From the NCBI RefSeq assembly GCF_030463535.1, contig NC_132879.1:22501-86500 (forward strand): a stretch of 64,000 nt of DNA. The letters are read 5' to 3'. A program made the translations under genes and the position numbers. Shown here one piece after another: positions 16,596 through 20,174 of the stretch (its first letter is position 1; each line of letters starts with the position of its first letter). The notes beneath the pieces were generated by a model. It searched no databases. It had not been told where the DNA came from and saw nothing but the letters and a program-made list of their open reading frames with translations. The DNA comes from Salminus brasiliensis (Eukaryota > Chordata > Actinopteri > Characiformes > Bryconidae).

Positions 16596-19500
16596 CTACT
16601 CGTCTAGCCAGTCCAGGTCCAAGCTTCTACCTTTAAAGGACTGTCTGTTGACACCATAGTCAAACATCAGTTCCTTGTTGACCGGAATGTCAACCAGGGC
16701 CCTGAAGAGCATGACATGCCTGGCCTCCCCGTCCATCATCAGCACACATTGCAGTGGCTTAAGGTTGGGGTTCTGTCTGGAGTGGTTGATCCGTCGGCCG
16801 ATGGTGTCGGCATCAGGGTGGCACTCGCAGGGGAACGTCTGGGCATCTATGCAGAGATCCTTCCCTCCAGCCTTGAAAATAAACAGGTAGCCTGGTCCTT
16901 CTGCCATGTTCTCCATCATTGCCCTTCCTTGTTCTCCTGTGATGACCTTCCCATGGTAATCGCACACTATGTCACCCTTCGAAAAGGGATGGGTTGCCAC
17001 CACTCCTGTAGTCAAGAGAACAAAATATTTTCATTAAGGAATTTTTGCAATTCATATGATTTGATCTTTTCTCCCATTTCCAAGAAAGAAGAGGGAGTTT
17101 CCTACCTAGCCCTTTTCCTGGTCCAAAATCTTTAATGGCCAGGCCTTTCCACCTCTGCCTGGCCACACTGTTCAAGATGGTAGGATTCTTCTCAACATCA
17201 GCTTTGGAAGCTGGTTTCCAGAGTCTTAGGATGATGTTGGGAGAAGGAAAGTTGGCCACCCAGCCCTCTTTCTCAATCGCACGTGCAGCCTTACCCAATG
17301 TTGGCTTTCGATGAAAGTGCGCTGCAATCACGAGCGAGATCAATTTGGTCACGCACGTCAGTCTAAACGAACGGCCAGATGTTTCTAAATTCTGTGGTCA
17401 GTACTGTATTTATGGACTGCAGTACTTACACAGCAGATGATCCTGCCTCTGCTTGTACTGTTGACACCTCCACCTGTCATAAAAGGAGCGCTCAGCCTGG
17501 AACCCTGCATCGATCCTTGCTTTCTTGCTAGGTGACTGGCCATCAAGGGTCACAGGGAATGCTGCCAAAAAGTCAGAAAAGTGCTTTCTGGCAGGCTGGA
17601 CCGGTGGCGGGGCAGTGGAGTGGGTGCTGGGAACGTGATCTGGAGAGGAGCTGTGAAAAGAAGGGCAGAAAGAAGGTTAAAATATTACAAATGAGGAAGA
17701 CTTTTTAAACTATGGTAAGACGCTCTTGTAATGTATTATAGTGGTGCAAGAAAAAGAAACCTACCCGCCCAAGGAGTCCAGAAGTTTAGCTGTGGCCACC
17801 ACAGCTTGAGGCATGCGCATCCTGTAATGTTGCTTGGCCACAGCACTGCTGTGGGCTAAATAATGAGCCACGCCCTCCGTCTGGCTCTCCGTAAAGGTTC
17901 CAGATGCCTGTGTCTCAGCAGCTTTTCGGACCTCCTGGCTTGTGGCAGGCCTAAGTTTATAGCTGCAATGAGAAAATGATACAGGACATGTTTACTGTGG
18001 CATAAATGAGTTAAATACAATCGTATCAATATTTAGACACCAGAACATTTGAAGATTTATGGAGTTACATACCTTCCATGGAGGCGCTTCAGGTTATTTG
18101 TTGCACTGTTAACAGGTTTTCCATTTGATGAAATGAAAAACTTCTTACATTGCTTTCTTAGGAAGATAGGCCGGATTTTTTCGTAGTATGCCTGGAACCA
18201 CTGTGCGTATGACAAGAATAACCATCACGTGGTTGTAATGCAATGTAAGCCTTGCGTCATAAAACAGGCAAATGTGGCTGCTAAACAACTTACCGCTTCC
18301 TCCTGCTGAGTCAAAGCCAATGTGGCAATCTGCATTGTTGCAGTCTTGTGTTGGCAAATGCCGATCACAGCCCTCCCGTCAACATGTTGCCGGTTGATCC
18401 ACTCCATCTCCTGGAAAACAAAGAAAAATCAACGTTTATTAATGCGTACGCTTCAAAATAACCACGGCAGCATATAAAAGGTATAATCTCCTGTAAGCTG
18501 TTAAAAAGAGATGCACTTACAGTCATGCCTTCCACCGCTCCAGGCCGTTGAAAGTGCCGCAACATCATCACTGCTTCGCAGTAGTATCTGTACATGGTCT
18601 TTTCACTTTCTGAGAGCAGGTCATCAGTGATTAACTTCCCGAACAAGATCAGGAAGTCCGGCTTAGCCACTCTCAGGATCTCCTGACAGTCTCTTACAGA
18701 CCGCAACCCCACCACAAACTTGACATACCTACATAACAAAAACAAAACGAGTAGAGAAAATGAGAGGGGGGTAAGTACAGACGTCACACTCAGGACAGTT
18801 GGGGTAAATGAAGAAGTTCTCTAATACTGTGGACTAAATGAGAGTCCAGCACTTCATATACAGTGGGAGCAAGGAAAAAACAGTAAGGAATCAATTGTAC
18901 CTGGCTTTGCACACCTCATGCGAGTGAGCCTTTGAAATGGGCTTCCTAAGAGTTTGGAGCATCTCCTTGAAAGCCTGGCATTCCATACGGAGCTGTGCAT
19001 CCCTCTTTGCCAGATCCAGCCTTGTTTTCAGGTAGTCTAAAAACCTGATGATGTTCTTAATGTAATTGAGAACGGTGGCCGCGGTCATGTGTGTGGCTTG
19101 CAGACTGGCCAGGAAATCCCGGGTCTCTATGCTCTTCGTTAGGAAGTCCAGAGTTGGCTCATCTCCACTTGGCTGCACAAAACGCAGGAAGCGGGACACG
19201 TTGTCGACCTGTCGGGAAAGAACAAGGATCGTTATCATCATCATCAAAAGTAAATTTATAGGGTAAACTTTTCTTCAGGAAAGATTTAGAATGCCTAACA
19301 TATCTGTCTGCTGACAAAGTGGCAAGCACACCACACACGCCAATTTATTTATAGTGTAGACCAGTAAGAGATCCTACCTCCTGCTGGCAGTTGGGGACCA
19401 TCAAGGTCACCCTCAGGTACCTCTTGAAGTCCTGTAGAAGCTTGGTGTCATCTGGAAACTTCTCGTACAGACCCGCCTCCTTCATCATAACACGGACAGA

Positions 19501-20112
19501 GGTGGTCACTGCTGAACCTTCTCTGTTAAATTGAAGAAAAACACGCTCAGTCCAACACGCCCAGTCCAAACTCGGACAGAGGACAGAGTCTCACCGCTCT
19601 TACCTTTTCCAGGAAGGATTCATGGTCCTCTCGCAATGCTCAGAAGAGGAGTCTGACTCACTTTCCTCTGGTGACGAGTGGGCAGATGTTGTTGGTGTCT
19701 GACAATACGGCGTCACGGAAACAGACGCAGTTTCTGAGGTGGAAACTTCTGCTTGTTCATTATCTGCCATGTTAGACTCATGGGGCAGGTTGGTGAGGAG
19801 AAAGCCACGTTCCTGGAACAGCCTTACCAGCCGATGGCGACAGGGCCTGTGCGGCAGAACCTTACACAGGTATCTGTAGTCCCAGGTCCTGTTCTCCCAG
19901 CACCAGTCCTTGGAGGATTTCTTGGCCCTTTTCAGCTCAGCTGCTCTTTCCTCTGAAGACTTTGCTTTCATGCAGACTCTCTGAAGATGAACAGCAATGT
20001 TCCTCTGTGGTTTCTTGCACAGCAAACAGTGCACAACATTGCGATCGGCAAAGGTTCTGCGCAAGAAACGAGAACAGACATTACAGATGGGGACGTTAGA
20101 AAGCATCAACAT
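16596..20112 (-). CDS. Tyrosine recombinase-SET fusion protein, copy B, ten exons, intact
   Basis: Exons in order (minus strand): 20112-19604, 19522-19378, 19208-18901, 18728-18521, 18410-18294, 18200-18073, 17962-17765, 17650-17430, 17321-17106, 17005-16596. All have GT-AG introns and compatible phases, giving about 819 residues. The N-terminus (residues 9-50) has a Cys/His cluster (CNVC, CLLC, HLQRVC). Residues 321-537 look like a tyrosine recombinase: R382 in QRPGAV, K412 in CQHKT, R484 in TSQEVRK, H509 and Y518 in LAHSSAVAKQHYR. Residues 684-819 are a SET domain like KMT5A (GVVATHPFSKGD, GRRINHS at 753-759, FDYG at 798-801). Fish predicted proteins of this SET type are usually called KMT5A-like. 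The start is uncertain: an upstream exon with ATG lies at 20152-20174, but its phase does not join this frame. The exon 8/9 junction is my best choice among alternatives. The probable role is DNA recombination plus lysine methylation (inferred). Confidence 0.82.
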
Positions 20113-20151
20113 GACAAGAAAACCTGCTCAAAGAAACGGGAATGCTCTTAC

Positions 20152-20174
20152 CTCTTCGGAGCTTGTTCAGCCAT
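20152..20174 (-). other. Exon 0 of recombinase-SET copy B
   Basis: Minus strand ATG GCT GAA CAA GCT CCG AAG AG followed by a GTAAGAGC donor, conserved in copy A at 15,093-15,115. In copy A a TTTTGAAG acceptor at 12,382 would join it in frame to exon 1 (KR-LSNV). In copy B about 40 bases including that acceptor are missing, so the nearest upstream acceptor (exon start 20,123) would shift the frame and the internal ATG at 20,112 would be needed. Confidence 0.6.

Follow-up and report, generated by a model that had tools for sequence, protein, structure and literature searches.

A probable resident gene of Salminus brasiliensis with a putative tyrosine-recombinase-derived region and a KMT5A-like SET domain, most likely multiplied by local duplication

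Background

In SETMAR (Metnase), a SET domain is joined to the Hsmar1 mariner transposase (PMC8994322). Here, we analyse a 64,000-nucleotide stretch of the genome of the fish Salminus brasiliensis (hereafter the window; C2:22501-86500, where C2 and similar handles denote contigs), in which a predicted gene (copy A) carries a C-terminal KMT5A-like SET domain downstream of a region that is likely, if unproven, to derive from a tyrosine recombinase. Like SETMAR, it would be a resident host gene that places a SET lysine methyltransferase and an element-derived, DNA-recombining enzyme in one protein. The two differ in that the enzyme is a mariner transposase in SETMAR and possibly a tyrosine recombinase here, in that the SET domain of copy A is KMT5A-type and C-terminal, and in that most of the catalytic-type residues are retained in copy A.

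Animal genes that join a tyrosine-recombinase-derived domain to other domains offer a further comparison. KCTD1, KIAA1958, ZMYM2-4, QRICH1 and WOC carry DUF3504, a domain derived from Crypton recombinases, and these genes have been described as lacking the catalytic Tyr and the second Arg (PMC3212892). Copy A would share their general plan, whereas the DUF3504 profile fails on it, and R, R, H and Y appear to be kept at the positions they occupy in XerD.

On the SET side, expansions of KMT5A-like genes have been reported for Hydractinia (65 genes), Hydra (24) and sea urchin (61) (PMC10368294). As here, the SET genes concerned are KMT5A-like, have multiplied and diverged, and carry additional domains; the difference is that in those animals the SET domain is mostly N-terminal and the Hydractinia genes are non-adjacent, and neither 'recombinase' nor 'integrase' occurs in the main text of that paper. 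In zebrafish, Region-2 of chromosome 4 was reported to hold four SET genes that fall in one gene tree with relatives lacking a SET annotation (PMC11075544). This is likewise a fish SET gene cluster with non-SET-annotated relatives in a repeat-rich region, although there the four genes sit within a 651-gene block; the word 'recombinase' is absent from the main text. A zebrafish survey lists 58 SET genes, including setd8a and setd8b (PMC2200798). No fusion of a tyrosine recombinase with KMT5A was described in the titles or abstract openings of the open-access literature matches listed.

An intact gene with a KMT5A-like SET domain

Copy A is a real, intact and unusual gene. Its 11 exons occupy window positions 16596-20174 on the minus strand, all introns are GT-AG, and the spliced sequence (2427 nt) encodes 808 amino acids plus a stop codon with zero frame errors, so that the intact gene announced for this interval by the original prediction is borne out. 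The ten exons and 819 residues given there fit a start at the ATG at 20112, from which the frame continues directly into exon 2; in this alternative form exon 1 is skipped and every later residue number moves by 11. We favour the 11-exon form instead, because a decayed relative (copy B, below) matches exon 1 plus its donor base for base across 31 nt, though the promoter there is only 82-85% alike. Residues are numbered after the 808-residue model throughout, and the features of copy A in window coordinates are:

20175..20497, minus strand: promoter/5' region, common to copy B; a string scan gives a TATA-like sequence at 20258
20152..20174, minus strand: exon 1, opening 23 nt of the frame, which begin with the start codon and encode MAEQAPK with two bases left over, from the splice model
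19604..20056, minus strand: exon 2, N-terminal region (conserved) and a zinc-finger-like motif, CxxC...HxxxxC
19378..19522, minus strand: exon 3, from the splice model, with counterparts in copies B and C
18901..19208, minus strand: exon 4, putative core-binding (SAM-like) domain of a tyrosine recombinase
18521..18728, minus strand: exon 5, R371 (codon 18545-18547) in a putative catalytic box I
18294..18410, minus strand: exon 6, K401 codon at 18345-18347
18073..18200, minus strand: exon 7, from the splice model
17765..17962, minus strand: exon 8, codons of R473 (17926-17928), H498 (17851-17853) and Y507 (17824-17826)
17430..17650, minus strand: exon 9, linker, 89% identical in protein in copy D
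17106..17321, minus strand: exon 10, SET-proximal region
16596..17005, minus strand: exon 11, SET domain with NHS (N746, H747) and FDYG (F787-G790), stop codon
16098..16595, minus strand: 3' region, polyadenylation-type AATAAA at about 16199; 16098-16352 are 91% identical in copy C

No Pfam family matched residues 1-104, and the CxxC...HxxxxC motif of exon 2 is known from sequence reading alone.

By sequence comparison we regard the presence of a C-terminal, KMT5A-like SET domain as certain. Pfam PF00856 (SET) matches residues 671-790 (E 1.5e-12), and in a search of solved structures the closest chains are those of KMT5A/SETD8 (5.5e-12 to 9.5e-11), with another SET protein (4ldg) at 2.7e-11 and NSD2 and EHMT2 at 7.9e-5 and weaker. 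The hit to the SET profile and the rank of KMT5A as the nearest solved structure both mark the domain as KMT5A-type; together with the intact NHS and FDYG motifs they confirm the KMT5A-like domain named by the original prediction. Residues from 652 on (within exon 10) align with KMT5A (SETD8, PR-Set7), including its NHS and DYG region, and the same structure search gave no KMT5A match before residue 596. Copy A differs from KMT5A in its inserts, in its long N-terminal part and in a Phe at the Y334 position. Since Y334F lets SETD8 add more methyl groups, F787 may allow more than one methyl group to be added here. The stretch in question reads ELMFDYG in copy A, as against ELLYDYG in KMT5A (7xpx) and ELLFDYG in the 3f9w chain; 3F9W-3F9Z are listed as SETD8 Y334F (PMC3529403).

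Copies, flanks and coding constraint

Among the best candidates scored, the whole protein has 22 matches in the 1.07 Gb genome searched (103 contigs): 16 in the window, five on C93 and one on C1. Three of the C93 matches, as well as that on C1, cover the SET domain alone (35-36% identity) and belong to a different KMT5A-like family. The recombinase part alone (E up to 10) gave nine matches. Eight of them belong to copies in the window, at E 0.012 or lower; the ninth lies on C6 (E 8.75), none outside the window being below E 8. The relatives of copy A, and the spacer that separates it from copy B, are:

15060..15443, minus strand: copy B, promoter and exon 1, next to a LINE (long interspersed nuclear element) insertion
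10626..12453, minus strand: copy B, rest, decayed exons 2-4 and 10
31158..33873, plus strand: copy C, decayed and in inverted orientation, with the 3' region and pieces of exons 2-5
C93:155943-159742: copy D, a decayed relative on contig C93
15443..16098, minus strand: spacer between A and B, parts common to the copy D flanks

The two decayed relatives that had been noticed within 15 kb are therefore borne out as B and C, and D adds a third. Copy B matches copy C at 95.8% identity across 310 bp; exons 5-9 and 11 of copy B were not found. Exon 10 (residues 604-667) is kept in copy B, where it follows exon 4, and in copy D, where it follows exon 9 and retains only about its first 24 residues; in copy A these parts are joined too. 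As exon 10 also occurs in B and partly in D, its join to the recombinase-side exons predates those duplications.

Copy B is split between exon 1 and exon 2 by a LINE-like element on the plus strand (window 12454-15060) that carries a 478-residue reverse-transcriptase frame (12852-14288). On the minus strand of C93 there are KMT5A-like SET frames at 28333-28887 (L033:8333-8887) and near 47.97 and 64.85 kb, which have equal scores, lie 17-20 kb apart and are about a third identical to the SET domain of copy A; the one that was read has acidic repeats upstream. A broken relative of these frames (L030, 0.06 Mb from the C1 end) is 86% identical over 136 residues, and the C93 and C1 frames may be retrocopies of a KMT5A gene.

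The copies share introns, and their homology extends into the flanks. Positions 20175-20497 of A match window 15116-15443 (copy B) in three pieces at 82-85% identity; pieces of the spacer within 15448-15863 match C93:154255-154686 (71-83%), and the 3' flank of A (16098-15923) matches C93:163428-163616 (79%). The first ~85 bases of this last match (query 3 to about 87) match nothing else in the spacer search, and part of the rest is a dispersed repeat. That search gave 42 matches, 35 of them confined to query bases 88-191 (the dispersed repeat); the remaining seven are the spacer, four sites on C93 and two intronic sites of copies B and C. One spacer segment of 84 bp (window 15912-15995) recurs on many contigs and is perhaps a fragment of a SINE (short interspersed nuclear element).

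A sharp 3' terminus common to A, C and D at A 16098-16104 looked like the end of an element and was ruled out as such, since the boundary in D is a gypsy-like insertion and the homology of C continues for a few more bases before it stops. The insertion in D, with gag and pol frames of gypsy-like type (L047:108-2365, C93:160108-162365), separates the 3' piece of that copy from its 3' flank, and homology resumes at C93:163428. A dispersed 3' repeat was likewise ruled out, 16090-16360 being present at two places genome-wide, both in the window. The coding part lies between the arms of a 17-nt inverted pair (94%; 16404-16420 and 20516-20532); because the 13-nt core of each arm has a single occurrence in the window, copies B and C do not hold an intact pair.

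Dispersed copies at unrelated sites were not found among the best candidates scored, the relatives being confined to the window and C93. Since these relatives have flanks and introns in common, the designation of the family as a mobile element is not supported in this genome, and local tandem and inverted duplication, not transposition, most likely produced the copies.

Copy A is constrained over the exons that can be compared. The ratio of nonsynonymous to synonymous substitution rates (dN/dS) is 0.53 against B (343 codons), 0.47 against C (247) and 0.53 against D (189), with values of at least 1 in 1, 1 and 4 of 300 bootstraps, respectively. These figures cover the non-SET exons (exon 11 has no counterpart in the other copies), exclude any codon that holds a stop or a gap (exon 2 of copy B has two stops) and pool the short exon 5 pieces of copy C that came as separate matches. 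As the other copies have been dead for part of their history, copy A itself is probably under more constraint than a value of about 0.5 suggests.

The putative tyrosine-recombinase region

The middle of the protein carries R371, K401, R473, H498 and Y507 (R382, K412, R484, H509 and Y518 in the 819-residue numbering of the original prediction). An unguided hhalign comparison of residues 204-527 with an alignment of E. coli XerD and XerC returned a single colinear match over 247 columns (E 0.068), and three decoys were weaker, with E 0.36 for the reversed sequence, 0.60 for the N-terminal part of the protein and 0.39 for its C-terminal part. In its columns R371 falls on XerD R148, R473 on R247, H498 on H270 and Y507 on Y279, whereas K401 falls on K175 and not on K172; the XerD catalytic numbers used here agree with the letters of its sequence. 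The H498-Y507 spacing is nine, the same as in XerD. The histidine of HxxR is missing, with Gln470 three residues before R473 and XerD H244 falling on Ala467. Two integrase families that score below their cut-offs fall in the right order along the protein, and the exon 4 model (the only exon folded) is all-helical, with a mean predicted local distance difference test (pLDDT) score of 67.5. Our estimate leans in part on a likeness of the middle region to eukaryotic recombinase boxes.

A good deal weighs against recombinase descent and against a single recombinase-SET protein. No recombinase profile rose above its curated cut-off in Pfam, PHROGs or NCBIfam (the latter two gave no match at all), so that a profile check set beforehand for residues 321-537 formally speaks against the recombinase. 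Phage_int_SAM_4 on exon 4 (E 0.0055, 17.5 bits against a cut-off of 27) and Integrase_2 (E 0.0075, 15.8 bits against 25.4) both fall ~10 bits short, and the unrelated Peptidase_M24_C scores equally (E 0.0068). The hhalign probability of the XerC/XerD match is 0.8%. A sequence search of the Protein Data Bank (PDB) with the recombinase part found no solved recombinase, its two matches being chance hits to mitochondrial ribosomal L4 (E 0.49 and 0.61), and Foldseek of the exon 4 model against the PDB gave no significant match (best E 0.72). In pairwise comparisons, shuffled sequences (2000 each) scored as well as exons 6-8 in 17 cases for XerC, 184 for XerD and 775 for a DIRS-like recombinase; the corresponding counts are 34, 487 and 996 for residues 208-527, and 460, 1396 and 1778 for exon 8 alone. 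The loose R-K-R-H/W-Y spacing pattern arises in 831 of 20,000 shuffles and therefore proves little alone, and a strict motif pattern (1 of 20,000) carries no weight, as it was written post hoc and is failed by both XerC and XerD. The apparent retention of R, R, H and Y is itself unlike the domesticated DUF3504 genes (PMC3212892). Beyond the recombinase, no counterpart of exon 11 exists in copies B, C or D, so the last splice rests on one locus, and the genome searches score the best candidates only.

Taking both sides together, the hhalign probability and the Peptidase_M24_C match lower the odds of a recombinase, while the colinear XerD alignment, with its four matched catalytic positions, keeps the idea alive. 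A tyrosine-recombinase identity is thus likely, yet unproven, on moderate evidence that includes the box likeness. Of the in-frame recombinase domain originally proposed, the R/K/R/H/Y residues stand, four of them aligned with XerD catalytic sites, and the profile support does not.

The more specific label 'Crypton-like' finds no footing here, for the DUF3504/Crypton profile (PF12012) finds its 16 genomic matches, spread over seven contigs, entirely outside the window, and it does not hit the 808-residue protein. PF00589 matches one place in the genome, on C25 (L050), which is DIRS-like from our reading of its frames. The 808-residue protein contains no reverse transcriptase of the kind that accompanies the recombinase in DIRS/Ngaro retroelements, and the nearby reverse-transcriptase frame is, by our own reading, that of the LINE in copy B. 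A viral contig scan by peptide patterns gave no match.

Genomic setting

A tandem array with a unit of ~11.7 kb spans the right end of C93 and the left end of C2: window 100-2800 has full copies at 100% identity on C2 (10904-13604) and C93 (175298-177998), besides partial ones at C2:2-1930 and C93:187501-189769. Because the two contig ends share this array, C93 probably adjoins C2, and all copies would then form one cluster. A subtelomeric label for the locus was ruled out, since C2 starts inside the array that also ends C93, which marks a break in an array and demonstrates no telomere.

Elsewhere in the window there are seven arrays of a 13-bp CTGACTGTTCTGT-type minisatellite (37992-50940), ~2 kb apart and seemingly parts of a larger repeated unit, and a 17-bp satellite of ~139 copies (61503-63839).

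A proposed resident host gene and its alternatives

We give about even chances to the reading in which copy A is a resident, multi-exon host gene with a tyrosine-recombinase-derived part and a SET domain, locally duplicated and working like SETMAR. Exon phases and GT-AG sites allow both parts to lie in one transcript. We infer the recombinase descent and all steps after splicing (expression, nuclear location, DNA targeting and substrate) along these lines: one nuclear protein would combine the zinc-finger-like motif, a recombinase-derived domain (helical core-binding part plus catalytic part) and the C-terminal KMT5A-type SET domain. By analogy with SETMAR, the zinc finger and the recombinase-derived part would bind particular DNA, and the SET domain would methylate a lysine of nearby chromatin, by descent H4K20 or a neighbouring site. 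The family would have multiplied by local tandem and inverted duplication, without transposition.

We think it rather unlikely that the middle is an unrelated helical region with chance R, K, R, H and Y, which would make copy A a divergent KMT5A paralogue with a long N-terminus. Such a region would account for the sub-threshold profiles and low hhalign probability, for the frequency of the loose motif in shuffles, for pairwise scores mostly no better than those of shuffles and for the weak exon 4 fold search; it fits poorly with an unguided colinear XerD alignment that matched four catalytic positions ahead of three decoys, with integrase families in the right order and with the XerD-like H-to-Y spacing. 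An autonomous or recently active element, moved by its own recombinase while the SET domain conditions target chromatin, could be envisaged from the retained recombinase-type residues, from several copies (one inverted, some internally deleted) and from the 17-nt inverted pair around the coding part. We hold this to be improbable, for neither a recombinase match below E 8 nor the 3' region occurs outside the window, the flanks are homologous and the introns retained, the apparent common end at 16098 is explained in D by the gypsy-like insertion, and B and C lack an intact 17-nt pair.

A broader version, in which a fusion of a catalytically competent recombinase with KMT5A-type SET still moves or rearranges DNA and marks target chromatin in other fishes, copy A being its captured descendant, is in our judgement a long shot. 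Finally, with three of the four copies decayed and the locus lying amid satellites and transposons, copy A might be a relic that is dying or not transcribed and whose frame has simply not had long enough to decay; its silent-site divergence from the decayed copies (0.20-0.39), against 808 lesion-free codons and a dN/dS of about 0.5, makes this improbable to us.

Significance

As regards mobility, the analysis corrects the view that the copies at this locus are evidence of it. If both the recombinase identity and the single transcript are true, the gene would join SETMAR as a case of a DNA-recombining enzyme fused to a histone methyltransferase, differing from it in enzyme class and in SET class. 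The DUF3504 genes are described as lacking the catalytic site (PMC3212892), in contrast to the residues retained here; given that same premise, the retained R, R, H and Y would make recombinase activity in a vertebrate host gene a question that can be asked. The joining of a sequence-specific DNA enzyme to a chromatin writer would, moreover, suggest a repeatable route to a targeted chromatin regulator.

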